A DNA stretch of 64,000 nucleotides from Marinococcus halotolerans DSM 16375 (GCF_000420725.1 NZ_ATVM01000002.1:62001-126000), one strand, 5' to 3'; shown: positions 39,670 through 53,813, counted from the stretch's first letter. Notes: a model not told the origin generated them from the letters alone. Numbers and translations: made by a program.

Positions 39670-41283
39670 GTGATGGGGGATATGGTGGGGGAAAAGCAAA
39701 CTAAACCGTTAAAGCTTGTAACATGGATTACCTTGTTAATTTCTACAGTGATGCTTATTGCGCTTTGCATTACCGGTATCATTGTCGCCGTGGATACGGC
39801 TGACGATGTCCGGGATCAGCAGGCGGAAAAAGCACTGAATATTGCCGAGGCTGTCAGCCGTTCACCGGAAGCAGCACAAGCGCTGCAGGCCGGCGAACAG
39901 GGAGGCAGCCTACAGGAATATACAAAAGAAGTGCAGGAAGCAACGAACATGGAATATGTGGTTGTTATGGATATGAACAGCGTGCGCTATACGCATCCCC
40001 GTGAGGACCGGATCGGTGAGCAGTTCGCGGGCGGTGATGAGGCGAAGGCGTTAAACGGCCGCACATACGTATCCACGGCTGAAGGGACGCTGGGTGTTTC
40101 CATGCGGGCGTTTGTACCGGTGATGAATGGCGGAGAGCAGATCGGTGTTACCTCAGTGGGCATTCTGACTGACAGCATTCAGGAAGACATCTGGGCAGAT
40201 CAGCAGACGCTTGTTCTTGGCAGCGGTATCGGGCTGGCTGCCGGCGTGGTCGGTGCCTTCTGGCTCGCCCGCCGGATCAAAAAAACGATGCACGGACTCG
40301 AGCCGATTGAAATATCGCAGGTGCTTGAACAGCGTGAGGCAATTATGTCCTCCGTGCGGGAAGGGGTGCTTGCTGTCAACAGCAGCGGCACAGTGATTCT
40401 GGCCAACGACGCGGCCAGGGAGCTGTTTGCGGAAGCCGGTGCCGAAGAAGACCCGATGGGCAAGGATATATCTTATTTCTTTGCCGATTCTCTCCTGAAA
40501 AGAGTGCTGGAGACACAAGAGCAGGAGCTCGACCAGGTCCAGCAGCTGAACGACGTGGAAATTATCGTAAGCTGCATGCCGGTTGTTTCAAATACGACCC
40601 TGCTCGGAGCTGTGGCAACTTTTCGCAACAAAGACGAGCTGACACGGCTCGTCGAGCAGCTGTCCGGAGCCAGGACCTACGCAGAAACGCTCCGGGCCCA
40701 GTCCCATGAGTTTATGAACAAGCTTCACGTCATTTCGGCCATGATCCAGACGGAGTCGTATGAAGAGCTCGATGACTATGTGATGAGCATTTCAAGCAAC
40801 TACCGCCAGGAGGTCGGATGGGTGACCGCGTATGTAAAAGACCCGGTGCTTGCCGGCTATTTAATGAATAAAATATCCAACCTGCAGGAAAACGGGATCG
40901 AAGTGGAGCTTTCCGGGAACGGAATGTGGCCGGCAATGGCCGATCCTGAATGGACCGACCATATGATCACGATTATCGGCAATCTGATCGATAATGCCCG
41001 TGACGCGATGAAGCATACGCCGTCTCCTCATTTATTTATGCATATTTACGAAGAGAACAGCTATCTCGGTTTTCAAATCGAAGATAACGGGCAGGGAATG
41101 GACGAGAAGACCCAGACAGAACTGTTTGCACGGGGGTATTCGACGAAGGGCGAGGGCCGTGGCTTTGGCATGTACAATACGAAGCGATCGCTCGAAACGC
41201 TCGAAGCAGAAGTGTTTATCGATTCCCAGCCGGGGGAAGGGACGGCCTTTGACGTGCAGATACCAATGGAGAAGGAGAACTGA
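39670..41283 (+). CDS. CitA/DcuS-family sensor histidine kinase (C4-dicarboxylate or tartrate sensor)
   Basis: A 537-residue kinase with TM1 near residues 18-40, a periplasmic-type PAS/PDC sensor (about 41-175, with EYVVVMDMNSVRYTHP and RAFVPVMN), TM2 near 177-198, a cytoplasmic PAS (about 215-325), and the SPOB_a-type His box AQSHEFMNKLHVIS (His near 346) with HATPase_c (NLIDNARDAM, DNGQGM, GRGFGMYN). This is the CitA/DcuS/MalK architecture for di- and tricarboxylates. Start is uncertain: GTG 39670, ATG 39673, ATG 39682 and GTG 39685 all compete. It precedes its regulator by one base, and the DASS symporter and D-tartrate dehydratase follow. Confidence 0.9.
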   Translation: MMGDMVGEKQTKPLKLVTWITLLISTVMLIALCITGIIVAVDTADDVRDQQAEKALNIAEAVSRSPEAAQALQAGEQGGSLQEYTKEVQEATNMEYVVVMDMNSVRYTHPREDRIGEQFAGGDEAKALNGRTYVSTAEGTLGVSMRAFVPVMNGGEQIGVTSVGILTDSIQEDIWADQQTLVLGSGIGLAAGVVGAFWLARRIKKTMHGLEPIEISQVLEQREAIMSSVREGVLAVNSSGTVILANDAARELFAEAGAEEDPMGKDISYFFADSLLKRVLETQEQELDQVQQLNDVEIIVSCMPVVSNTTLLGAVATFRNKDELTRLVEQLSGARTYAETLRAQSHEFMNKLHVISAMIQTESYEELDDYVMSISSNYRQEVGWVTAYVKDPVLAGYLMNKISNLQENGIEVELSGNGMWPAMADPEWTDHMITIIGNLIDNARDAMKHTPSPHLFMHIYEENSYLGFQIEDNGQGMDEKTQTELFARGYSTKGEGRGFGMYNTKRSLETLEAEVFIDSQPGEGTAFDVQIPMEKEN

Positions 41284-41284
41284 A

Positions 41285-41995
41285 ATGAGAGTATTAATGG
41301 TCGAAGATGACCCAATGGTAGCTAAATTTAACCGTATGTATGTCGAACGTGTTCCCGGGTTTGACGTAGCGGGGCATGCGGAAAACCTGACGAAGGCAAA
41401 AGAGATGCTTCAAGCAGAAGCGATTGATATCGTGCTTTTGGACGTGTATTTAAATAAAGAAAACGGCCTCGATCTTCTCGAGGAGCTGCGAAAAGAACAG
41501 ATTCCGGTGGACGTGATTGCAATCACGTCGGCTAACGATACCTCTTCGCTGCAGCGGGCCAAACGGCTCGGCTGTACGGATTACCTGATTAAACCGTTTC
41601 ATTTTGAACGTTTCCGGGAAGCGTTAATTAATGTCAAGGAATGGCAGAAGGCGTCCGGAACGAAAAAGGAATGGGGACAGGAGGATGTGGATCAGCTGTT
41701 TTTAGCCAACAAAGGCAACCAGGAGGAGCACGAGCTGCCTAAAGGCCTGACGACAGAAACCTTCCGGATTGTCGGCGAAGAGATACTGCAGCATGCGGGC
41801 AGTACCTTTACGACGCAGGGGCTCGCAGAAAGCACGGGGATATCGAGAGTGTCCGTGCGAAAGTACCTCGCTTTTTTAGAAGGAGAAGGGGTGCTTAAAA
41901 TAACGATGAATTATGCGGGAAGCGGCAGGCCGCTGCAGCAGTACACGATGCCTCCGGAACAGGTGGAAATACTTAAAGACTGGATGGAAAAGTAA
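41285..41995 (+). CDS. CitB/DcuR-family response regulator
   Basis: A 236-residue regulator with a receiver (VEDDPMVAK, Asp in IVLLDVYLN near residue 54, Lys in LIKPFHFE) and a C-terminal CitT-type helix-turn-helix (TTQGLAESTGISRVSVRKYLAFL, near 180-202). Start MRVLMVEDD at 41285 follows GGAGAAGGAGAACTGAA and lies just after the kinase stop. It should activate the downstream carboxylate transporter and dehydratase genes in response to the neighbouring kinase. Confidence 0.92.
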   Translation: MRVLMVEDDPMVAKFNRMYVERVPGFDVAGHAENLTKAKEMLQAEAIDIVLLDVYLNKENGLDLLEELRKEQIPVDVIAITSANDTSSLQRAKRLGCTDYLIKPFHFERFREALINVKEWQKASGTKKEWGQEDVDQLFLANKGNQEEHELPKGLTTETFRIVGEEILQHAGSTFTTQGLAESTGISRVSVRKYLAFLEGEGVLKITMNYAGSGRPLQQYTMPPEQVEILKDWMEK

Positions 41996-42026
41996 GGAAA
42001 ACAGCTGGCAGTTTTGGTTATTTTGT

Positions 42027-42064
42027 TTACAAAAGTATGTGCTTACTTACAAAATGTATACAAA
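42027..42064 (+). promoter_or_regulatory. Candidate regulator-binding repeats upstream of the DASS gene
   Basis: TTACAAAA occurs at 42027-42034 and 42047-42054 and a variant TATACAAA at 42057-42064, spaced 20 and 10 bp. They precede a TATATT-like -10 region. They are good candidates for the CitB-type regulator at 41285, by inference. Confidence 0.4.
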
Positions 42065-42089
42065 GAATCAAAACTTTATTATATTAGTC

Positions 42090-42103
42090 AGCAAGCGCTT
42101 TCA
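42090..42103 (-). promoter_or_regulatory. cre-like site upstream of the DASS gene
   Basis: On the minus strand TGAAAGCGCTTGCT matches cre with two mismatches. It is just downstream of the likely promoter, where CcpA could act as a roadblock. Confidence 0.45.
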
Positions 42104-42131
42104 ATAATCTGAAAAGTAAGAGGTGAGAAGG

Positions 42132-43838
42132 ATGAAGAATACGGTTACTTCCGGCTGGAAATCATTATGGAATTCCCACCGGCAGACAAAGAAACTGCTG
42201 AATGTTTTTCAGACGGACCGGTCACCAACACGTCACAAGGAAGAAGAGATCCAGGACCCTTCTACTGCAGGCCGCAAGACCAGTCGCGGCGGAAATGATG
42301 GAGGAGGAAACGACGGAGGAGACAGTGGAGGGCAGGACCCCGCCTACAAACGTCCTCAGCTCGTAGGACTTATTTTAGGGCCATTATTATTTCTCATTAC
42401 CATGTTATTTTTGGATCCTTCGGGACTCAGCTATGAAGGAAAAGCAGTACTTGCCACCACGCTTTGGATTGCCACCTGGTGGATAACAGAAGCGATCCCA
42501 ATTCCGGCGACCTCACTTTTGCCGATTGTCCTTCTGCCGATTACCGGGGCACTGGACGGCGACACTGTCGTTTCTTCCTACGGTAACGATATTATCTTCT
42601 TGTTCTTAGGTGGTTTCTTTATTGCCTATGCAATGGAAAAATGGAACCTACATAAGAGAATTGCGCTGTTTATCATCGCGGTGATTGGTACAAGCACCAA
42701 CCGGATTATTCTCGGCTTTATGGTTGCCACAGGCTTTTTATCCATGTGGGTATCCAATACAGCATCAACGATGATGATGCTTCCGATTGCGCTTGCGATT
42801 ACGTATCAGGTATCGGAAGCCCTCAAGGAAGAAAAGGATTCCGAAAAAGAAGTAAAAAAATTCGAAAAAGCGCTTATTTTCGGTGTTGGTTACGCCGGAA
42901 CGGTCGGCGGACTCGGTACACTGATCGGAACGCCGCCGCTCAGCATTCTGGCTGCACAGTCGGAGGAGCTGTTTGGGCAGCAGATTTCCTTTGCTCAGTG
43001 GATTATGTTCGGTGCGCCGATCGTAGCCGTTTTCTTATTGATCGTCTGGTTCTATCTGACCCGTTTTGTCTATAATATCGGCTTTTCGACTATTCCGGGC
43101 GGCCGGGACATGATTCAGGCCGAGAGAACAAAGCTGGGTGCGATGAAATACGAAGAAAAAATTGTTATGTCCGTATTCGTATTTGCCGCTGTGATGTGGA
43201 TCACCCGTTCCTTCTTCTGGCAGGAAATAGTCGGAGTAACCGGTCTCAGTGATGGCGGTATTGCCATGATCGCCACCGTGCTGTTGTTTTTAGTGCCTGC
43301 CACGAAAAAGCAGGAGGATCCTCGGGTCCTGGTCTGGAAAGACTCCCGGGAAATTCCGTGGGGCATTCTGCTGTTGTTCGGGGGCGGTCTCGCGATTGCT
43401 GCCGGCTTTAGTAACACCGACCTTGCCGAATGGATCGGTAACAGCTTAACTATACTTGAAGGCGTAAATATCATTCTTGTGATTCTTGTGTCTGCTGCGC
43501 TCGTATTGTTCTTAACGGAAATTACGTCCAACACAGCGACAGGCACCATGATTATTCCACTGGTGGCCTCTTTGGCACTTGCGATTCAGGTTCACCCGTT
43601 CGCACTGATGGTGCCGTGTGCCATGGCTGCAAACTGTGCGTTTATGCTGCCGGTTGGTACACCGCCAAACGCCATTATTTTCGGGAGCGGGAAAATACGG
43701 ATCATCGACATGGTGAAAAATGGTTTCTTCCTGAATATATTTGCGATAATACTAATTACGGCATTAGTCTACCTGGTTCTGCCAACGCTATGGGGCATCG
43801 ATTTGACTACCGTACCCGACTCGTTCCGTAATAACTAA
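42132..43838 (+). CDS. DASS (SLC13) family sodium:dicarboxylate symporter
   Basis: A 568-residue transporter. The first 70 residues are a hydrophilic, Gly/Asp-rich extension (GGNDGGGNDGGDSGG near 57-71), then about 12-13 helices. SNTASTMMMLPIALA (near 205-220) and ITSNTATGTMIIPLVASLA (near 463-480) are the two SNT substrate/sodium motifs. TPPLSILAAQSEELF and LPVGTPPNAIIFGSG match SdcS-like proteins. It should import dicarboxylates with Na+; the next gene suggests D-tartrate. Start ATG 42132 follows AGAGGTGAGAAGG. It lies 136 bp after the regulator and 12 bp before the dehydratase. Confidence 0.9.
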   Translation: MKNTVTSGWKSLWNSHRQTKKLLNVFQTDRSPTRHKEEEIQDPSTAGRKTSRGGNDGGGNDGGDSGGQDPAYKRPQLVGLILGPLLFLITMLFLDPSGLSYEGKAVLATTLWIATWWITEAIPIPATSLLPIVLLPITGALDGDTVVSSYGNDIIFLFLGGFFIAYAMEKWNLHKRIALFIIAVIGTSTNRIILGFMVATGFLSMWVSNTASTMMMLPIALAITYQVSEALKEEKDSEKEVKKFEKALIFGVGYAGTVGGLGTLIGTPPLSILAAQSEELFGQQISFAQWIMFGAPIVAVFLLIVWFYLTRFVYNIGFSTIPGGRDMIQAERTKLGAMKYEEKIVMSVFVFAAVMWITRSFFWQEIVGVTGLSDGGIAMIATVLLFLVPATKKQEDPRVLVWKDSREIPWGILLLFGGGLAIAAGFSNTDLAEWIGNSLTILEGVNIILVILVSAALVLFLTEITSNTATGTMIIPLVASLALAIQVHPFALMVPCAMAANCAFMLPVGTPPNAIIFGSGKIRIIDMVKNGFFLNIFAIILITALVYLVLPTLWGIDLTTVPDSFRNN

Positions 43839-43850
43839 GGGGGATTCGTG

Positions 43851-45017
43851 ATGAAAATTGTACAGGTAGAAGAGCAGGCGGTGCCGATCAAATCGGATAT
43901 CCGTAACGCGTTTATTGATTTCAGTAAAATGAATGTCTCTGTCGTCGCGGTCAAAACCGATGTCATAAAAAACGGCAAACCGGTTGTAGGCTACGGGTTT
44001 AACTCCAACGGCCGGTATGCACCGAGTGGGCTTTTGCGCGAGCGGTTTATTCCGCGTCTGCTTGAAGCATCTGAGCAGGAAATGATGAGCGACGACGGCA
44101 GCAATCTGGATCCCTTTAAAATTTGGAGCATATTGATGACCGGTGAAAAGCCCGGCGGCCACGGGGAACGCTCTGTGGCTGTCGGGGTCATCGATATGGC
44201 GATATGGGATGCGGTGGCAAAAATTGAGGAAAAGCCGCTGTATCAGCTGCTTGCCGAAAGGTATAGCGAGGGAAGTGCAGACAGCAATGTTTTTGTATAT
44301 GCCGCCGGGGGCTATTACCAGCCCGGAAAAGGAGTCGATGCACTTCAGCAGGAGATGCGTACGTATTTGGAGTCCGGCTATTCGGTGGTGAAGATGAAAA
44401 TAGGGGGATCATCGATTGAGGAGGACATTCAGCGCATCGAAGCAGTCATTGAGGTGACCGGGGATCCGGGTAAGCTTGCGGTGGATGCAAACGGCCGCTT
44501 CGACCTGGATGAAGCGATTGCCTATGCGAAAGCGCTCGAACCTTATGGGTTGTTTTGGTACGAGGAGGCGGGCGACCCGCTTGATTACGCTCTGCAAAAT
44601 ACATTGAGTCGCTACTATTCCCATCCGATGGCCACTGGCGAAAATCTGTTTTCCATGCAGGATGCACGGAATTTAATCAGCTACGGCGGCATGCGGCCGG
44701 ACCGGGACTACCTGCAGTTTGACTGTGCCCTCAGCTACGGTCTGGTGGAATATATGCGCACGCTTGATATGCTGGAAGCAAACGGCTGGTCAACAAGGAG
44801 ATGCATTCCGCACGGCGGTCACCAGATGTCTCTCAATATTGCAGCCGGACTCGGTCTTGGCGGCAATGAATCCTATCCCGGCGTCTTTGAGCCATTCGGC
44901 GGATTTGCCGATGACTATCCGGTGGAAAATGGCTATGTGCAGCTGCCGGAGGTTCCCGGCATCGGCTTTGAAGCGAAAAACAATCTTTATACGCTGCTGC
45001 GCTCGGTGCTGCAGTAA
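43851..45017 (+). CDS. tarD: D-tartrate dehydratase-like, mandelate racemase/enolase superfamily
   Basis: A 388-residue enolase-superfamily enzyme that matches, by recall of the family, the Bradyrhizobium D-tartrate dehydratase in length and in motifs throughout: GYGFNSNGRYAPSGL, NEKPGGHGERSVAV-type MTGEKPGGHGERSVAVGV, VVKMKIGG (catalytic KxK near residue 180), AVDANGRFDLDE, WYEEAGDPLDYALQ, MATGENLF (metal ligands Asp, Glu, Glu), and IPHGGHQMSLNIAAGLGLGG with the catalytic His. It would convert D-tartrate to oxaloacetate. The gene lies directly after the DASS symporter with AGGGGGATTCGTG before the ATG at 43851. Other acid sugars are possible substrates. Confidence 0.85.
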   Translation: MKIVQVEEQAVPIKSDIRNAFIDFSKMNVSVVAVKTDVIKNGKPVVGYGFNSNGRYAPSGLLRERFIPRLLEASEQEMMSDDGSNLDPFKIWSILMTGEKPGGHGERSVAVGVIDMAIWDAVAKIEEKPLYQLLAERYSEGSADSNVFVYAAGGYYQPGKGVDALQQEMRTYLESGYSVVKMKIGGSSIEEDIQRIEAVIEVTGDPGKLAVDANGRFDLDEAIAYAKALEPYGLFWYEEAGDPLDYALQNTLSRYYSHPMATGENLFSMQDARNLISYGGMRPDRDYLQFDCALSYGLVEYMRTLDMLEANGWSTRRCIPHGGHQMSLNIAAGLGLGGNESYPGVFEPFGGFADDYPVENGYVQLPEVPGIGFEAKNNLYTLLRSVLQ

Positions 45018-45022
45018 AGGAA

Positions 45023-45054
45023 AGCCTGCATTCATCCTTTGATGAGTGCAGGCT
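45023..45054 (+). terminator. Terminator of the DASS-tarD transcript
   Basis: AGCCTGCA pairs with TGCAGGCT, continued by CATC/GATG, then a GTTTCT run. Confidence 0.82.
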
Positions 45055-45061
45055 GTTTCTA

Positions 45062-46210
45062 TTATAGGAGCCGGTACAGGCTGGCGAGACCGAGCCCGCC
45101 CCCGATTCCGATCGTGGCCACGCCGAGTGGGAGATCGCCGTTTTGCATCAGCCGCATGAGCCTTGCTACAAGAATTGCCCCCGAAGCACCGTACGGATGC
45201 CCCTGAGCGATGGCGCCACCGGCTGTATTCAGCCGCTCAGGCGGAATGCCGAGCTGAAAGGCCGAGGCAAGCACCTGGGAGGCAAATGCTTCATTGCATT
45301 CCCATACGGAAATGTCCTGGACAGACAAGTGGTTCCGTGCAAGCAGCCGGCGTACAGCAGGAACCGGGCCAATTCCCGGCATAGTAGGATCGACGCCAAC
45401 CGCGGCGGCATCGAGGATTTCAAGCGCAGGCACGAGTCCGTGCCGCTGGCAGGAGGAGCGGCTGGCCATCAGCGTGAGTGCCGCTCCGTCACTGATTCGG
45501 GAGGAGTTGGCGGCGGTGACTGTGCCGTTTTTCTCAAAAATAACGGGCGCACGGCGGATAATTTTGTTCATTTTTTCTGGAGAACGAATCTCAGCGTCTG
45601 CATGGACGGTACTCACCGGAATGATTTCCCGGGAAATATCCGTTTTTGCTGCTTCCTCCCACGAAAGCCTGTAGCTGCGTTCGGCAAAGGCGTCCTGATC
45701 TGCACGGGATATACTGTAGGCTTTCGCCACCGTTTCCGCAGCTTCTCCCATATCAGGATCTCCGATAAATTTGGGAGAAAAGCGGGCTCTTTCCTGCGTC
45801 GAGGAAACCGGGTAGGCTTCCGAGGCGAAAAAGGAGCGTTGCGGGGCCCGGCTTATGCTTTCGACCCCGCCGGCAAGAACGGTCTCCGCCGCCCCGGCCT
45901 GCAGGTGCCGAAATCCCTGATGCACAGCTTCAAGGCCGGAGCCGCACTGGCGGTCCACCGTTACACCAGGAACAGACCTGTCATAACCGGCTTCAAGCAG
46001 ACTGAGCCGGGCAAGGTTACCGCCCGGACCAACCGCATTTCCCATAAATACTTCGTCAGCCGGTATCCGGTCGTTTATCCCGTGATGGAGCTGGAAATGC
46101 TTATACAGCGGCGTTGTCAGCTGTTCCGGCTCCAGCTTTGAAAACCTCCCGTTCACATGATGGATGGGGCTTCTTTTGGCGTCAATGATATAGACAGGTT
46201 CAGTCATCAT
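45062..46210 (-). CDS. yhfS: Thiolase-family protein (YhfS-like) lacking the second catalytic Cys
   Basis: A 382-residue thiolase. The nucleophile Cys is in VDRQCGSGLEA (near residue 84), CNEAFASQVL (near 315) is the NEAFA motif, and GGAIAQGHPYGASG holds the catalytic His (near 345). The usual CxG motif before the C-terminus (LCIGGG, Cys378 in the Zoogloea enzyme) reads ATIGIGGG, so this acid/base Cys is Gly. It overlaps the ligase gene by 11 bases. In B. subtilis, yhfU-yhfT-yhfS form the same order and are in the BirA regulon, so a role in pimelate-type or biotin-linked acyl chemistry is inferred. Thiolytic activity is doubtful. Confidence 0.85.
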   Translation of the reverse strand: MMTEPVYIIDAKRSPIHHVNGRFSKLEPEQLTTPLYKHFQLHHGINDRIPADEVFMGNAVGPGGNLARLSLLEAGYDRSVPGVTVDRQCGSGLEAVHQGFRHLQAGAAETVLAGGVESISRAPQRSFFASEAYPVSSTQERARFSPKFIGDPDMGEAAETVAKAYSISRADQDAFAERSYRLSWEEAAKTDISREIIPVSTVHADAEIRSPEKMNKIIRRAPVIFEKNGTVTAANSSRISDGAALTLMASRSSCQRHGLVPALEILDAAAVGVDPTMPGIGPVPAVRRLLARNHLSVQDISVWECNEAFASQVLASAFQLGIPPERLNTAGGAIAQGHPYGASGAILVARLMRLMQNGDLPLGVATIGIGGGLGLASLYRLL

Positions 46211-47618
46211 TACCGTTCTCCTTTAATAAGGCTTCGTAATACTTCTGCGCGCGCAGCCGGTCGATTTTTCCGCTGCCTAGAACCGGCAGGCAGTTTGTCT
46301 GCAGGCATGCAGGCAGTTTATAAGCTGGCAGCCATTGGCGGCCATGTACATGCAGGTCGTGAGCAGTAACGCTTCCAGTATAAAGCGCAACGATTTTTTC
46401 TCCCTCGAAAGCATCAGGCACACCGAAAACAGCTGCCCGGTTAACATCCGGATGGCTCATGAGTATCTGTTCAATTTCTTCGGCATAAATATTTCGACCG
46501 CGGCTGACAATTTTTCCGCTCCGGCGGCCGGTAATATAAAGGAAGCCTTCTTCGTCGACAAAGCCAATATCTCCGGTGGCAACTGACCGCGGGTAGGATA
46601 AGGACTCGTCTTCAGCATACCCGCTGAATAAAAATGGGCTTGTGACGACTAATTCCCCGGATTCCGGGGGGGGACCGGCTTCCACCATGGGAAACAGGCG
46701 TCCGGTGCAGGAAGAGCTGACCTGTTCTGCGCGGTGGTTTAGGGCGCTGATAAAGCTGGTTTCCGCACTGCCGTAAAATTCATACAGCGCAGCCGAGGGA
46801 AAGCGGGCGAATATTTGTTGGTTATCAGCAGGAAACCATTTTTCTCCTCCCGTAATGATCAGTCTGACTGAGGAAGAGGGAGGAAAGGAGTGACTGAGAA
46901 GCCAGCGGAGCGTTGTAGGCACTGCGTACAATACGGTAATCTGCTGCCTGTCCACCATCCGAGCAAACACCCGCGGCGAGTGCCTTACAGGCAGAACCAC
47001 GGTGTGGCCGTATTCGAGCATACGCAAGGCCCCGTATAAAAAAAGAGAGTGGGAAAGCTTTCCGGTGATCAGGACGCGTTCGTCCTCCTGAAATGGAAAA
47101 AGCTGCTCGTCCGCCTCAAAGCTTTTCAGCCAGGAACGGTGGCTTCGCAGACATACCTTTGGCGTTCCGGAGGAGCCTGACGTGCAGGCGCCGTAAAACA
47201 AATCGGTCTCTTCGCAGAACGCAGCAGGTGCAGACAGACAGGACTCCGCGCCGGTAACGGCTGCAAGTGCCAGGGAAGGCACCGGCAGCCCGTCGGCTTC
47301 ATTGTCTGTGATAAAAAGGCCGGGCCTGGAAGAGGAAAGAAAAGAAGCTATCGCACCGCTTTCCAGCGTTTCATCCACTGGCACAGCAATGCCGCCTCCA
47401 GACACGATCGCAAAAAACATATACAGCTGCTCCAGTGGGTCCTGAAGCGCAAAGGCGATCTGCTTTTGAAAAAAGGGGCCGGCAGCTGCTTGCAGCTGAC
47501 TCCGCCGGCGGTTAATGGTCTCATGCAGCTCCTGCCAGCTGATCGAACGAGCCGAGTATTCGACCGCCGTCTTTGCAGGATGAGAAGCGGCGTACCGGGC
47601 GATGGCCTGGCCGATCAT
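46200..47618 (-). CDS. yhfT: AMP-binding acyl-CoA ligase (YhfT-like)
   Basis: A 472-residue ANL-superfamily adenylate-forming enzyme. The P-loop-like motif is YGACTSGSSGTPKVCLRSH (near residue 135), YEFYGSAETSF is the A5 motif (near 280), and TGDIGFVDEEGFLYITGR (near 350) with GKIVSRGRNIYAEEIEQ (near 370) are A7-A8. GSGKIDR near 452 is the A10 Lys. It activates a carboxylic acid, probably a fatty or dicarboxylic acid, to its CoA thioester. Start follows AAGGGGGGATTTCC. Operon with bioY upstream and the thiolase downstream, all leftward. Confidence 0.88.
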   Translation of the reverse strand: MIGQAIARYAASHPAKTAVEYSARSISWQELHETINRRRSQLQAAAGPFFQKQIAFALQDPLEQLYMFFAIVSGGGIAVPVDETLESGAIASFLSSSRPGLFITDNEADGLPVPSLALAAVTGAESCLSAPAAFCEETDLFYGACTSGSSGTPKVCLRSHRSWLKSFEADEQLFPFQEDERVLITGKLSHSLFLYGALRMLEYGHTVVLPVRHSPRVFARMVDRQQITVLYAVPTTLRWLLSHSFPPSSSVRLIITGGEKWFPADNQQIFARFPSAALYEFYGSAETSFISALNHRAEQVSSSCTGRLFPMVEAGPPPESGELVVTSPFLFSGYAEDESLSYPRSVATGDIGFVDEEGFLYITGRRSGKIVSRGRNIYAEEIEQILMSHPDVNRAAVFGVPDAFEGEKIVALYTGSVTAHDLHVHGRQWLPAYKLPACLQTNCLPVLGSGKIDRLRAQKYYEALLKENGNDD

Positions 47619-47638
47619 GGAAATCCCCCCTTTTGGCG

Positions 47639-48175
47639 CTACAGCCTGATTTTGTGCTGCTTGTTCAGCCGGACTGCTACAAAGCCGGCAACGACTGCTT
47701 TAAAAATATCCCCCGGCAGAAAAGCGAGTGCCTGAATGGCGGCAGTGGTCCATGGTATGTTTATTAAAAACGACAAGTAGGTAACGCCGCCGGCATAAAT
47801 GACAAGAATACCGCCGATAATATTAGCAAACAAGTACTTTGGAAACGATGGTTTCCTGAAAGAATGGGCGATCCAGCCAATGATAAACGCTCCGATCGGC
47901 CAGCTCAGAATGTAGCCGCCACTAGCGCCAAACAATACCCCGGCACCGCCCCGTCCACCGGAAAGCAGAGGCAGGCCTATCATTACGAGTACGACAAACA
48001 AGAGTATGCTGAGACCGCCGTATCTCGCTCCAAGCAGAGAGCCTGCAAGCATGACACCGAGTGTCTGCAGGGTGATCGGCACTGGACTGAATGGAAGCGG
48101 AATGGGCGGCACAATGCCTAAAGCTGCCATGATTGCTGCAAATAAAGCCGTATAAATAATTTTTTGTATACGCAT
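47639..48175 (-). CDS. bioY: BioY biotin transporter (ECF S component)
   Basis: A 178-residue substrate-binding membrane component with six helices. VPITLQTLGVMLAGSLLGAR (near residues 35-54) and FGASGGYILSWPIGAF (near 83-98) are the BioY signatures for biotin binding. It needs the general ECF ATPases and EcfT, not in this window. First gene of the bioY-yhfT-yhfS operon. The upstream BirA-like operator suggests repression when biotin is plentiful. Start at 48175 follows GTGAGGTGAACATAG. Confidence 0.92.
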   Translation of the reverse strand: MRIQKIIYTALFAAIMAALGIVPPIPLPFSPVPITLQTLGVMLAGSLLGARYGGLSILLFVVLVMIGLPLLSGGRGGAGVLFGASGGYILSWPIGAFIIGWIAHSFRKPSFPKYLFANIIGGILVIYAGGVTYLSFLINIPWTTAAIQALAFLPGDIFKAVVAGFVAVRLNKQHKIRL

Positions 48176-48312: not shown

Positions 48313-49797
48313 TTATGCTGAAGTTGTCTTTTTCTGGCGGATGATTGGGACGAGGAAGGAAAGAAGAGCAACAATCAGCATACTGAGAGCAATCGGCCGG
48401 GTGAAAAAGACCGTTAAATCGTCGTTGGCAATGGTCATGGCCTGACGGAAGGATTCCTCCATCATCCCGCCGAGAATAAATGCCAGGATAAGCGGAGCTG
48501 CCGGGAAATTGTACAGCTTCATCAAATAGCCGATCACGCCAAAAGCAAGCAGTAAGTAAAGATCAAACGTGCTGAAGCTGATGGAGTACACCCCGATCAT
48601 ACTAAACATAATCACAAGCGAAATCAGCATCGGGCGCGGGATCAACAGCACTTTAGCAATGTACGGTATAAGCGGCAGGTTCAGGATCAGGAGGAACACG
48701 TTGCCAATATACATACTGATGATAACGCCCCAGAACAGATCAGGCTGCTCTTCGATTAACAGCGGTCCCGGCGGCACGTTCAGCACAAGCAGGGCACCGA
48801 GCAGGACGGCCGTCGTTCCGGAACCGGGAATACCGAGGCTGAGCAGGGGCACAAAGGCACCGCTCGTGGCGGCGTTGTTGGCCGTTTCCGGAGCGGAGAT
48901 ACCTTTAACCGCGCCCTTCCCGAATTCTTCCGGACGTTTGGCAATCTTTTTTTCCGTAATGTAGCCGATAAAAGAAGCGATCGTTGCACCGGCACCCGGG
49001 AGCACCCCGAGAATAAACCCCAGGAAGGACTGGCGGGTCATCGGGCCGCTCATATCTTTAAAGTCCTGTTTGGACAGCTTCAGGCTTCCGATATTGCCCT
49101 GGTTTTTAATTGTTTTTTTCCGGTTGACAATTAGGTTGCAGATTTCTGCGATCGCAAACAAACCGAGCGCGATTACGAGAAAATCAATGCCCTCAAGCAG
49201 ATTTGAATTGTTAAATGTAAACCGCGTCGTCCCCGTCTGGCTGTCCATGCCGATGGTGACAAACATGAGGCCGAGTACTGCAGAAATAAGTGCTTTAATC
49301 GTCGAGCCGTCGGACAGACTGGCTATCGCGGTTAGCCCGAGCAGCATTAGGGCAAAATATTCAGGCGGACCAAACACAATGGCGACGCTTGCCAGAAGCG
49401 GAGCGAAAAGCATCAGCAGAACGACACTCACCGTACCGCCGGCAAAGGATGAAATAGCAGCAATGGCGAGCGCTTTTCCCGCCTGGCCGTTCTGGGCCAT
49501 GGGGTAGCCGTCAAAAGCGGTCGCGACTGTGCCGGAAATGCCCGGGGCGTTCAAAAGAATCGAGGAGGTGGAGCCCCCGAAAACAGCTCCGTAATACACA
49601 CCGGCCATAAGTACGAGAGCGACAGTCGGCTCCATGTTGTATGTCAGCGGGATCATGATAGCGATCGCGCTGATCGGCCCGAGCCCGGGCATCATTCCGA
49701 TAAATGTTCCGGCGAAAACGCCGATCAGCACAAACAGCATTCCCTGTACACTAAATGCGACGCTGAGGCCGCTTAATATTCCATCAAATGTTCCCAT
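48313..49797 (-). CDS. tctA: Tripartite tricarboxylate transporter large permease TctA
   Basis: A 494-residue membrane protein of the TctA family with about 11-12 helices. GTFIGMMPGLGPISAIAIMIPLTY (two pieces near residues 28-51) and LGVLPGAGATIASFIGY (near 265-281) are the duplicated GxxPG elements, and LLSLGIPGSGTTAVLLGAL follows near 318. With TctB and TctC it imports citrate-type tricarboxylates in a periplasmic-binding-protein-dependent, Na+-driven way. Start after AGGAGGTTCACCGC. Last gene of the tctCBA operon. Confidence 0.92.
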   Translation of the reverse strand: MGTFDGILSGLSVAFSVQGMLFVLIGVFAGTFIGMMPGLGPISAIAIMIPLTYNMEPTVALVLMAGVYYGAVFGGSTSSILLNAPGISGTVATAFDGYPMAQNGQAGKALAIAAISSFAGGTVSVVLLMLFAPLLASVAIVFGPPEYFALMLLGLTAIASLSDGSTIKALISAVLGLMFVTIGMDSQTGTTRFTFNNSNLLEGIDFLVIALGLFAIAEICNLIVNRKKTIKNQGNIGSLKLSKQDFKDMSGPMTRQSFLGFILGVLPGAGATIASFIGYITEKKIAKRPEEFGKGAVKGISAPETANNAATSGAFVPLLSLGIPGSGTTAVLLGALLVLNVPPGPLLIEEQPDLFWGVIISMYIGNVFLLILNLPLIPYIAKVLLIPRPMLISLVIMFSMIGVYSISFSTFDLYLLLAFGVIGYLMKLYNFPAAPLILAFILGGMMEESFRQAMTIANDDLTVFFTRPIALSMLIVALLSFLVPIIRQKKTTSA

Positions 49798-49813
49798 GCG
49801 GTGAACCTCCTTT

Positions 49814-50272
49814 CTACAGCGGCAGAATGCCCGGAGGCAGACTTATATTTAATAACTGGGTAAAAACTAAATAAAGAGTTAGCGGGAAAACAATCGAGGT
49901 CACAGCGTTGACGATATGTTTCCGGTAGCCCATAAACAGGCTGCACAGAAAAATAAATATAGTGGAGGCTAAAATGAAACCAACAGGCTCTAAAAGAGTA
50001 ATGTACAGCAGGATCATTACGCCTACACCGCCTAAGTAAAAAATATGCTGCCCGGCTTCCTTTCGTTTTTCCTGGTCTTCTTCGCTCTCGCCTTCCTTAA
50101 TGAAGAATAAAAAGATGCTGAGTAAAATTAATAAAAAACCGGCGGCTTTTGGCATAGTGGAAGCAGTAAACATGCCTGTAGCAAAAGCGGGAATTTGAAA
50201 AGCCAGGTATAAATAAAAAATGGCAATGACGATGAGAATCATACTGATCATTTTATTTGCGGAACGAAACAT
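49814..50272 (-). CDS. tctB: Tripartite tricarboxylate transporter small permease TctB
   Basis: A 152-residue membrane protein with four helices (about 12-29, 33-54, 80-103 and 107-150 as two close ones). This is the small permease of the TTT family, poorly conserved but recognisable by position and topology. Start ATG 50272 (MFRSANKMI) follows AGAGGTGATACGT; the frame opens at GTG 50281. It is 16 bp from tctA and 76 bp after tctC, with a hairpin in between that may lower its expression relative to the binding protein. Confidence 0.85.
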   Translation of the reverse strand: MFRSANKMISMILIVIAIFYLYLAFQIPAFATGMFTASTMPKAAGFLLILLSIFLFFIKEGESEEDQEKRKEAGQHIFYLGGVGVMILLYITLLEPVGFILASTIFIFLCSLFMGYRKHIVNAVTSIVFPLTLYLVFTQLLNISLPPGILPL

Positions 50273-50306
50273 ACGTATCACCTCTTTCGGCTGCTTTTAA
50301 TATAAG

Positions 50307-50337
50307 AGAGCCCTGGACGCAGAACGTTCAGAGCTCT
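50307..50337 (-). terminator. Intercistronic hairpin between tctC and tctB
   Basis: GAGC-CTG pairs with CAG-GCTC around a 13-base loop, with weak T-richness after it. It is likely partial termination or 3' protection that raises tctC messenger above tctBA, usual for binding-protein operons. Confidence 0.55.
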
Positions 50338-50348
50338 TTCGGACGCTG

Positions 50349-51386
50349 TTACTCGCCGCCCCGGTCAATGCCTACTTCATCAAGCAGGTCCTGCATGGAT
50401 TCTTCTTCTTCAGCCAAAAACTCTTCAAATTCTTCGCTGTCCATGTAGTTTTCTTCCCAGGCGTAGGACTGACGGGTTTCCTGCCAGTAGTCAGATTCAC
50501 TGAGTTCCTTGAACGTTTCTTCATAATAAGCAATTTCGGCATCGCTCATATCCGGCGGCCCCAAGAAACCGCGCCAGTTGACGAACGTTTCTTCGATGCC
50601 CTGTTCCGTAGCGGTTGGGAATTCGCTGACCGTGTCACCTTCGAGCCGTTCTTCGGCTGTAATGCCGAGCACTTTAACATCGCCGGCTCTCACCTGCTCA
50701 ACTGTCTCAGTGATGCCCGTTGAATAAACATCGGCCTGGCCGTTTAAGAGGTTTGTCAGGGCGCTGCCATCCTGGGCGGATACGTATTTGATGGTAGAAG
50801 GGTCGACGCCGGCGCCGGCTGCAATTTTGGCAAACTGCATATGGTCCATGCTGCCCGGGGAGGATTCGCCAACGACGGTAATGTCATCCGGATTTTCCTT
50901 CATGTCATCGAACAGGTCGTTCAAATCATCCCACTTAGAATCTTCCGTAACGGCGAACGCCCCGTAGTCGGCAATCATATTCGAAAGAGGAGTGAAATCT
51001 TCATAGCTGTATTCCGACTGTCCGTTCAGCGGCACGAGCAGAAGGGGAGGGGAGGCCACAAAGGAATACTCCGGGTTGCCTGCCTGGTTATGAATATAGG
51101 ACCAGCCGTTTGCGCCTCCGCCGCCTTCCCGGTTGACTACGCCGATGCCCTGATCAACGATTTCTTCTTTTTCGAGGCCTTCAGCAGCTGAACGGGCCAC
51201 TGTGTCCCAGCCGCCGCCAGCGCCGGCAGGTGCCACAATTTCAAGTGAGGAATCCGGCTCGTAGTTTTCTTCTTCGCCACCGCCGTCACCGCCGCCTGAT
51301 GAGCTGTCCCCGCCTCCGCTTCCACAGGCGCTTAAAACGCTAAGCGAAAGTACTCCGGCACCAATCCAATATTTCGAATGTTTCAT
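50349..51386 (-). CDS. tctC: Tripartite tricarboxylate transporter substrate-binding lipoprotein TctC
   Basis: A 345-residue secreted binding protein. The signal peptide ends in the lipobox LSAC (Cys near residue 21), followed by a Gly/Ser-rich acidic linker (GSGGGDSSSGGGDGGGEEEN). The mature Bug/TctC fold begins at SLEIVAPAGAGGGWDTVARS and includes NREGGGGANGW, typical of the Bug family. It captures the carboxylate outside the membrane for TctAB. Start MKHSKYW at 51386 follows AAAGGGGGC; the frame opens at 51440. First gene of the operon, with two cre sites upstream. Confidence 0.92.
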   Translation of the reverse strand: MKHSKYWIGAGVLSLSVLSACGSGGGDSSSGGGDGGGEEENYEPDSSLEIVAPAGAGGGWDTVARSAAEGLEKEEIVDQGIGVVNREGGGGANGWSYIHNQAGNPEYSFVASPPLLLVPLNGQSEYSYEDFTPLSNMIADYGAFAVTEDSKWDDLNDLFDDMKENPDDITVVGESSPGSMDHMQFAKIAAGAGVDPSTIKYVSAQDGSALTNLLNGQADVYSTGITETVEQVRAGDVKVLGITAEERLEGDTVSEFPTATEQGIEETFVNWRGFLGPPDMSDAEIAYYEETFKELSESDYWQETRQSYAWEENYMDSEEFEEFLAEEEESMQDLLDEVGIDRGGE

Positions 51387-51414
51387 AATATGTAGCCCCC
51401 TTTTTTTATATTGA

Positions 51415-51455
51415 TGTAAGCGTAACCAAAAAATGCTCAAATGTAACCGTTTACA
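51415..51455. promoter_or_regulatory. Two cre boxes upstream of tctC, one a full consensus match
   Basis: TGTAACCGTTTACA (51442-51455) equals cre consensus TGWNANCGNTNWCA on the minus strand with no mismatch. TGTAAGCGTAACCA (51415-51428) is a weaker second copy with two mismatches. Strong evidence for CcpA repression of tctCBA. Confidence 0.8.
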
Positions 51456-51516
51456 ATTTAAAATGTATATCTTTCGTTTATTGTATTTGTTTCATAAATG
51501 TCACGAACATAAATAA

Positions 51517-51545
51517 ACCGGCTGCATGGTTTGGCTGCAGCCGGT
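51517..51545 (-). terminator. Terminator of the second carboxylate two-component system
   Basis: ACCGGCTGCA pairs with TGCAGCCGGT, with a TTTATTTAT run on the minus-strand 3' side. Confidence 0.88.
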
Positions 51546-51552
51546 GAAAGGT

Positions 51553-52233
51553 TTATTTTTTAAAATATCTGCGTTCAGGGCGGCCGACGATGCCATAGAT
51601 GGGCCGGACCTCGATTTCGTTTGTGGATAACAAATATTTAAAATAGCGGTGCGCGGTGGTGCGGGAGGCGCCGAGGAAAAAGGCCATTTCATCGGCGGTT
51701 ACTCCGTGCTCCGCCTGCTGGATATGGTCTTTAACCTGATCGAGCGTGAATGCATCAATGCCTTTGGGCAGATCTTTTTCTGCTTTGGTTTCTGCTGCGC
51801 CAGACGGGGCAGAAGAGGAAAAGTAACGATCAATCTCCTCCTGGCTGAGGTCCCCTTCAGGACGGGCTGCCTGCAGAGCCTGGAATTTTTTCAGCGATTC
51901 CTCAAGCCGTTTGGGAGAAGCAGGTTTAATAATATAATCGATCACACCCGAGCGGTAGGCCTTCTGCACATGCTCGAGATCGTTTGAAGCCGAAATAATA
52001 ATAACGTACGCATCATGGCGGTCCAATATTTGCCCGAGGATGTCTGTGCCAAGCTGATCGGGCAGATAAATGTCGAGAAGTAGTACATCAACCGGCGTGT
52101 GCTCCATCGTCTCTAGCAGCTCCTTGGCGGTGCCGGCTGTGAATCTGCATGAAAATCCTTCAATTTGTTCAATCAGCTGTCGGTGAATATCTGCAATCCG
52201 AAAGTCGTCTTCGGCAATACCAACATGAATCAT
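51553..52233 (-). CDS. CitB/CitT-family response regulator of the tctCBA system
   Basis: A 226-residue regulator with a receiver (IAEDDFRIA, Asp in VLLLDIYLP near residue 53, Lys in IIKPASPK) and a C-terminal helix-turn-helix (TADEMAFFLGASRTTAHRYFKYL, near 180-202). It parallels the regulator at 41285. Start is ATG 52233, one base into the kinase stop (TGATG). It should activate the divergent-in-order tctCBA operon when citrate-like acids are sensed. Confidence 0.9.
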   Translation of the reverse strand: MIHVGIAEDDFRIADIHRQLIEQIEGFSCRFTAGTAKELLETMEHTPVDVLLLDIYLPDQLGTDILGQILDRHDAYVIIISASNDLEHVQKAYRSGVIDYIIKPASPKRLEESLKKFQALQAARPEGDLSQEEIDRYFSSSAPSGAAETKAEKDLPKGIDAFTLDQVKDHIQQAEHGVTADEMAFFLGASRTTAHRYFKYLLSTNEIEVRPIYGIVGRPERRYFKK

Positions 52234-53813
52234 CAACTACCCCCTTGCGGCAACGTTTTGGGCAGGTAGACCGTAAAGTAGGCGCCCTGGTTTTCATTGT
52301 TGCCAAATTCAAGCATACCCTCTAGTTCGTTAATCGTTCTTTCAACGATCGAAAGCCCGTATCCTCTTGGCTGATCGCCGGATTTTGTAGAGGCCCCCTG
52401 GGAAGTAATATCTACCCCTTCCGGCAGCCCGGGCCCGTTATCGACCACTTCAAACATAATTTCCTCCTCCATTTCGGTGACAAAAAAAGTCACTTCCGGT
52501 GCCGGGCAGCCCACCGCGCTGTCGATGGCATTATCGATAAGGTTGCCTAAAATGGAGACAAGCTGAACCTTCTGAATGTGGTTTGGAAGAGTCCCCAGCC
52601 GGCTTTCGCTGTCAATGTGAAAAGCTGTCTTTTTCTCGGAAGCCCGGGCTGCTTTTCCGGTCAGAATCGCCTGCACGGTCGGGTCCTGAATCTGCTGGAA
52701 GACCACGGAGTGGGTTTTACGCTGCTGGGACGTTTCTTCTTCGACAAGCTGCACTGCCTCATCATATTTCCGGAGGTGAAGATACCCGGACAGCGCATAC
52801 AGCTTATTCAAGTATTCATGGTTTTGCGAACGAAGGCTGTCCGAATAGCGCTGAATGTCAGAAAGCGTATTGGCCATCTGCATCATCTCCGTTTTGTCCC
52901 GGAACGAAGAAACAACTCCGACGAGCTGCCCGTCGATAGTGATCGGCTCCCGGTTAACGATGTAAGGAGCGCCGCGGAGCATTAATTCCTGATCGTATTC
53001 CGGCTGGCCGTGCTTCAGTACCTTTGGCATTTCCGAGTCCGGCAGCACGTGATGAATATTCTGCCCCTCGATTACCCCGTTAATGGCAAGCATGTTCCGC
53101 GCCGAGTCATTCATCATCGTGATCCGTCCGTCTGTGTCAATCGCAATAATGCCCTCCCGGATAGCGGTAAGTACACTTTCTTTTTCCTGGTACAGCTGGC
53201 CGATTTCATGAGGCTCGAGGCCGAACATGTCTTTTCGTATATTTCTTGAAACTGCCATACTGCCGATCACGCCCAGGGCGAGAAGGACGAGTGCGAGGAC
53301 AAACAGAAGGCCAAAGCGTTCCCAGATGGCGGCGCGCACATCTTCAAGCAGAAAGCCGACGGAAACGATGCCGACAATGTCCCCGTCTTCATCGCGAACC
53401 GGAGCTTTGCCGCGAAGGGAGGGTCCTCGGGTGCCGGTGGCAGTGGATACGTAGGACTGCCCCTGCTCAAGCGCGCGGGCGTTGTCGCCGCCTACCATGG
53501 ATTCGCCGATTTTCCATTCATCCGGGTGAGCATAGCGGATGCCCTCGGTATCTCCAAGGACTACAAATTCAGCGCCGGCCTGCTTACGGACCCGTTCAGC
53601 ATAGGGCTGAAGCACAGAGCTTGGATCATCGGAGGCATACGCTCCCTGAACAACCGGGGAGCTCGCTATGTAGGTGGCTGTGCTTAATGCTTTATCTCCA
53701 AGCTCTTCTTCGATATCATTATATTCTAAATAAGCAAACACTCCGAAGGAGCTTATCGTAATAAAAGCGACAAGCCCGACGACGAGAAACATAATTTTTG
53801 TCTGCATCTTCAT
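52233..53813 (-). CDS. CitA/DcuS-family sensor histidine kinase of the tctCBA system
   Basis: A 526-residue kinase with TM1 near residues 8-30, a PDC/PAS sensor (about 31-165; EFVVLGDTEGIRYAHPDEW, GKAPVRDEDGDIVGIVSVGF), TM2 near 170-192, a cytoplasmic PAS (about 205-310), the His box RSQNHEYLNKLYALSGYL (near 340) and HATPase_c (NLIDNAIDSA, DNGPGL, RGYGLSIVE). It is a paralogue of the kinase at 39670. The strong ribosome site AAAGGAGGGAG lies 24 bases before ATG 53813 and is better spaced to an in-frame ATT, so the start is unsettled. Confidence 0.88.
   Translation of the reverse strand: MKMQTKIMFLVVGLVAFITISSFGVFAYLEYNDIEEELGDKALSTATYIASSPVVQGAYASDDPSSVLQPYAERVRKQAGAEFVVLGDTEGIRYAHPDEWKIGESMVGGDNARALEQGQSYVSTATGTRGPSLRGKAPVRDEDGDIVGIVSVGFLLEDVRAAIWERFGLLFVLALVLLALGVIGSMAVSRNIRKDMFGLEPHEIGQLYQEKESVLTAIREGIIAIDTDGRITMMNDSARNMLAINGVIEGQNIHHVLPDSEMPKVLKHGQPEYDQELMLRGAPYIVNREPITIDGQLVGVVSSFRDKTEMMQMANTLSDIQRYSDSLRSQNHEYLNKLYALSGYLHLRKYDEAVQLVEEETSQQRKTHSVVFQQIQDPTVQAILTGKAARASEKKTAFHIDSESRLGTLPNHIQKVQLVSILGNLIDNAIDSAVGCPAPEVTFFVTEMEEEIMFEVVDNGPGLPEGVDITSQGASTKSGDQPRGYGLSIVERTINELEGMLEFGNNENQGAYFTVYLPKTLPQGGS

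Follow-up and report, generated by a model that had tools for sequence, protein, structure and literature searches.

Organization of the locus

The window, the whole 64,000-nucleotide stretch of Marinococcus halotolerans DSM 16375 DNA that was analyzed, carries four genes on one strand between positions 39670 and 45017, in the order sensor kinase, response regulator, DASS symporter, and dehydratase, as in the original prediction. The first gene (39670–41283, + strand) encodes a membrane sensor histidine kinase of the DcuS/MalK family, with a periplasmic sCache_3_2 domain, a PAS domain, and a kinase portion; its start is a GTG at 39670, with alternative ATG starts downstream. A DcuR/CitB-type response regulator follows (41285–41995, + strand), and then an SdcS-like DASS Na+/dicarboxylate symporter (42132–43838, + strand), whose ATG start lies after an AGGTGAG motif, with a GTG at 42123 as the alternative. 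The last gene (43851–45017, + strand) encodes a D-tartrate dehydratase, TarD, of the mandelate racemase subgroup of the enolase superfamily. The spacing between the DASS stop codon and the tarD ATG was measured as 12 bp, in agreement with the original prediction, and no promoter-like match of note was found within this gap. A terminator-like hairpin with a 14-pair stem, a 4-base loop, and a T-rich tail is positioned directly 3' of tarD (45023–45054, + strand) and, together with the short gap, makes it plausible that DASS and tarD form one transcription unit. The four-gene order is also present in the other three Marinococcus genomes with an intact tarD, indicating that the arrangement is not due to chance, and an uncultured Marinococcus contig contains the same locus with a TarD that is 96% identical to the 43851 product.

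Two gene groups on the opposite strand lie beyond the hairpin. Positions 45062–48175 (− strand) contain consecutive genes for a thiolase, an acyl-CoA ligase, and a BioY-like membrane protein, in an order that we take to resemble yhfS-yhfT-yhfU of B. subtilis. Positions 48313–53813 (− strand), 3 kb from tarD, contain TctA, TctB, and a TctC-like protein beside a second CitA/DcuS-type kinase and its regulator. This second kinase is 32% identical to the first, and the group appears to be a separate system for carboxylate sensing and uptake.

Identity of the dehydratase and tarD loci in other Bacillota

Comparison of the 43851 product with solved enolase superfamily structures resulted in E values of 1.9e-176 for Bradyrhizobium japonicum Bll6730 (PDB 2dw6, 2dw7, and 1tzz; the value is for 2dw7/1tzz), an enzyme that has been characterized and crystallized (Yew et al. 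2006, doi 10.1021/bi061688g; cited in PMC10079672), and 5.4e-189 for the unassigned relative 4kem, compared with 3.5e-24 for the best match in any other enolase subgroup. The alignment with Bll6730 covers the full length, with 256 of 384 aligned residues identical (67%), and the positions K182, K184, D213, E239, E265, D292, and H322, as well as N55 and K102, are all kept in Bll6730 numbering. Of these, K184 and the H322-D292 dyad are reportedly catalytic, and D213, E239, and E265 are said to be the metal ligands. The predicted match to the Bradyrhizobium enzyme is thus upheld at full length and at every catalytic residue, although Bll6730 comes from another phylum and the Bacillota and Pseudomonadota TarD proteins form separate clades. 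A better fit to another acid-sugar dehydratase subgroup was looked for, and TarD was far ahead. Membership of the mandelate racemase subgroup and weak matches to the arabinonate and talarate/galactarate dehydratase models would be compatible with a different acid sugar as the substrate, but these matches lie far under the model cut-offs (111 bits against 650 and 110 bits against 500, respectively), and this alternative is very improbable given the identity to TarD, the retained catalytic residues, and the tartrate enzymes that neighbor tarD elsewhere. The same three lines of evidence make the 43851 product almost certainly a D-tartrate dehydratase.

The tarD loci of other Bacillota contain orthologous TarD proteins with about 69–77% identity (L009, L018, L172, L006, L054, L174, L175, L240, and L241). 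Beside or close to tarD are a tartrate dehydrogenase in L009, L240, and L241, the alpha and beta subunits of a tartrate dehydratase/class I fumarase in L173 and L175, and a malic enzyme in L007. The L173 subunits score above the NCBIfam cut-offs for fumarate hydratase and Fe-S hydro-lyase and not above those for L-tartrate dehydratase, so that fumarase is the closer name for them. In L240 and L241 (genomes G371 and G338) there is an apparent tartrate cluster comprising tartrate dehydrogenase, a CitE-like lyase, tarD, and a DASS of a second subfamily. These loci differ from that of Marinococcus in their regulators, which are of the GntR/FCD type (L009, L018, and L172) or PrpR-type sigma-54 activators, or none seen, and in their carriers, which are of other kinds or not adjacent. 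The PrpR-type assignment is by the Pfam PrpR_N domain in L006 and L054 and by BLAST similarity to L006 only in L008, L010, and L077; the large open reading frames upstream of tarD in these five loci had been considered as fused TRAP permeases, a reading that was rejected because of the PrpR_N domain in L006 and L054. KdgT permeases adjoin tarD in Alicyclobacillus (L007, L008, and L010) and lie near it in L009. With tarD found in about a dozen Bacillota genera, D-tartrate use within this phylum extends beyond this organism. Among the papers searched, none linked Marinococcus with tartrate, and for TarD in Bacillus there were chance matches only.

The M. halotolerans genome itself has another locus that is likely to serve tartrate or D-malate (contig C25, 26000–38000; L187). 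It contains a GntR/FCD regulator, a tartrate dehydrogenase scoring over the TIGR02089 cut-off, a DASS that is 48% identical to the one in the window, a glycerate kinase, and a KdgT permease, together with an apparent four-carbon acid sugar kinase and a PdxA-like protein that were recognized by eye only.

Sensor, symporter, and control sequences

The predicted CitA/DcuS type of the kinase agrees with its score of 591.7 bits against the NCBIfam DcuS/MalK-family model NF008298 (PRK11086; cut-off 520), whereas the narrower MalK model gives 518 bits and does not reach its cut-off of 800. The Pfam domains are sCache_3_2, PAS, SPOB_a, and HATPase_c, and the sensor domain (39784–40209) matches that of DcuS (PDB 3by8) with an E value of 4.4e-23. 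The five ligand residues of E. coli DcuS, R107, H110, F120, R147, and F149, have identical counterparts in the kinase. The same five residues occur in relatives lacking tarD, and the adjacent loop is nearly alike with and without tarD. The pocket therefore appears to be of the ordinary C4-dicarboxylate type with no sign of a changed ligand, and fine tuning could still have taken place. For the regulator, the predicted CitB type stands insofar as a Response_reg domain is present and the DcuR equivalog NF007750 is the best NCBIfam model, but the score of 224.7 bits misses the DcuR cut-off of 262, and the protein is therefore named only DcuR-type, by position and best model.

The symporter, also foreseen as a DASS protein, exceeds the TIGR00785 cut-off (283.3 bits compared with 198.6), and its closest solved relatives are SLC13 and VcINDY. 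Its N-terminal extension (42156–42344, + strand) comprises a W..LW..H...K.LL.F segment followed by a Gly/Asp-rich linker, and had been singled out as unusual. The linker is real and distinctive, being strong only in Marinococcus (its G075 counterpart is Gly-rich), but the segment is common to most of 61 aligned DASS homologues, so that the extension itself is clade-wide and was not retained as a special feature. The segment (42156–42212; homologues L176–L229) lies before the first membrane helix and outside the PF00939 match in most Bacillota SdcS-like DASS proteins. Close relatives of the symporter are encoded 15–23 bp upstream of tartrate dehydrogenase genes (L184, L190, and L196), and a distant DASS subfamily (20–21% identical) adjoins tarD in L174 and L175 and lies near it in L240 and L241. 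Both associations make tartrate transport by the Marinococcus DASS plausible.

The best promoter-like match upstream of DASS, a candidate sigma-70 promoter TATACA-17-TATATT (42057–42085, + strand), agrees with 9 of 12 consensus positions and is a weak candidate, matches in the region being about as numerous as in shuffled sequences. Just after it is a cre-like (CcpA) site, GCAAGCGCTTTCAA (42091–42104, + strand). Such sites occur upstream of 24 of 57 DASS homologues, compared with 0.56 expected from shuffles, an enrichment that makes CcpA repression of the DASS promoter likely; all eight of the DcuSR-linked DASS genes examined have one. Attempts to define a binding site for DcuR were unsuccessful. 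The direct repeat TTACAAAA was considered and rejected, since the window copy is equaled in 18% of shuffles and only the G136 copy is significant. An operator-like palindrome (about AATGTATACGTT) is found upstream of tarD in L011, L018, and L009 (as a GTATGC variant in the last) and at the C25 locus. The only counterpart of this GntR operator-like palindrome at the DASS promoter of the window is AATGTATAC, with its core at 42056, and a similar GTATAC is present at the DcuSR-DASS unit of G136; GntR control of the window operon was therefore not adopted. A further palindrome, close to CTGTCGACAG, is located upstream of DASS in L184, L185, L190, and L196 and is likely an operator; a divergent gene that is GntR-type by name lies beside each, and tartrate dehydrogenase follows DASS in three of the four.

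Distribution of the sensor-symporter unit and proposed function

The original prediction described a self-contained module with a sensor dedicated to D-tartrate. The distribution of the genes argues against both parts of this description, as the sensor and transporter are not restricted to genomes with tarD. At least six genomes contain the DcuS-DcuR-DASS unit and no tarD (G075, G035, G049, G146, G045, and G040). G136, a member of the same family as Marinococcus, also has the unit, and its tarD is located ~500 kb from it, next to a gene for a GntR regulator. The units of these seven related Bacillota are like that of Marinococcus in gene order, DASS clade, and cre-like site, and differ in that tarD does not stand behind the symporter. 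In the DASS tree, the Marinococcus proteins fall within a clade of 11 members (100/98) linked to DcuSR; one of the 11, L183, has no adjacent DcuSR. In the TarD tree, whose inner Bacillota forks are weakly supported, the Marinococcus and G136 proteins do not fall together, so that tarD probably has a history of its own. Within the order, tarD is present in 5 of 151 sampled genomes. The DcuSR-DASS-tarD arrangement was found only in Marinococcus in a survey of TarD loci across all bacteria and a 400-genome class sample, in which short-flank loci were checked for the nearest genes only and gene calls were crude in high-GC loci.

Four of the five Marinococcus genomes have an intact tarD adjacent to DASS. 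In the fifth, that of the sister species G152, the alignment to the window runs up to 43903 and resumes at 44845 with nothing between, corresponding to a ~941-bp frame-shifting deletion (43904–44844, + strand) in this one assembly. At the junction the first tarD codons remain and are followed by a frameshift and an early stop. The neighboring genes are intact, with identities of 95% for DcuS, 95% for DASS, and 93% for DcuR. Since tarD is destroyed while sensor, regulator, and symporter are retained, G152 would keep the operon for a purpose other than D-tartrate, unless the deletion is an assembly error or a very recent loss.

The reading that we regard as probable is that a general C4-dicarboxylate DcuS-DcuR-DASS operon had a D-tartrate dehydratase gene added at its end before the Marinococcus species split. 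External C4-dicarboxylates, perhaps including tartrate, would bind the DcuS sensor domain, and DcuR would then activate the DASS promoter, as expected from homology. The DASS protein, with Na+ coupling assigned likewise by homology, would import C4-dicarboxylates and D-tartrate, and co-transcribed TarD would dehydrate D-tartrate to oxaloacetate for central metabolism, the reaction being that of its homologues. When sugar is plentiful, CcpA would repress the DASS promoter, again by analogy with homologous systems. Co-induction of tarD by DcuSR is probable. As GntR/FCD or PrpR-type sigma-54 regulators accompany tarD elsewhere in Bacillota, we infer that its placement under DcuSR is a regulatory rewiring.

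A dedicated module, with both the DcuS-type kinase and the symporter specialized for D-tartrate, would explain the tight DASS-tarD adjacency in four of the five Marinococcus genomes, which may reflect a tighter link, and the single terminator after tarD. The kinase is also the only full DcuS homologue with a DcuS-level score in the genome, leaving no second copy to argue against a change of ligand, but being the sole such sensor argues equally for service to general C4-dicarboxylates. Since at least six genomes have the unit but lack tarD, the two are apart in G136, the unit is intact in G152, and the pocket residues are unchanged, a sensor dedicated to D-tartrate was rejected as the main reading, and we consider such a module unlikely. 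An equally doubtful alternative is that tarD is separately controlled and its place behind DASS incidental, with DASS serving ordinary C4-dicarboxylates and D-tartrate entering through another carrier. Candidates for this carrier would be the KdgT permease or the second DASS at C25, or the TctABC system 3 kb away, and KdgT does accompany tarD in Alicyclobacillus and L009. The 12-bp gap without a notable promoter-like match argues against this explanation, as do the pairing of DASS relatives with tartrate dehydrogenase and of the second DASS subfamily with tarD elsewhere. We give slightly less weight to the possibility that retuning of DcuS and DASS in Marinococcus has made D-tartrate the main ligand of both under physiological conditions, with tarD rewired from GntR to two-component control; if true, the retuned kinase would be a DcuS-type D-tartrate sensor.

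The preferred reading of a general operon with an added dehydratase gene has a counterpart in E. coli, which requires DcuB and FumB to use D-tartrate and in which DcuSR activates fumB-dcuB (PMC3565967, citing Kim et al. 2007). Common to both systems would be a general C4-dicarboxylate sensor and carrier that serve D-tartrate, and oxaloacetate as the product. The Marinococcus system differs in that the enzyme is the enolase-superfamily TarD instead of a class I fumarase, none of which was found in this genome, and the carrier is a DASS instead of DcuB. The locus is a new arrangement of known parts and alters no general view. On a small scale it illustrates clearly how a general uptake operon already in place can take on a catabolic gene, and a sister species shows what the operon looks like once that gene has been lost. 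It also cautions against inferring the specificity of a sensor from an enzyme gene next to it. The analysis extends tarD to about a dozen genera of Bacillota, in which its regulation has been solved in several ways, and yields testable predictions for SdcS-type carriers.
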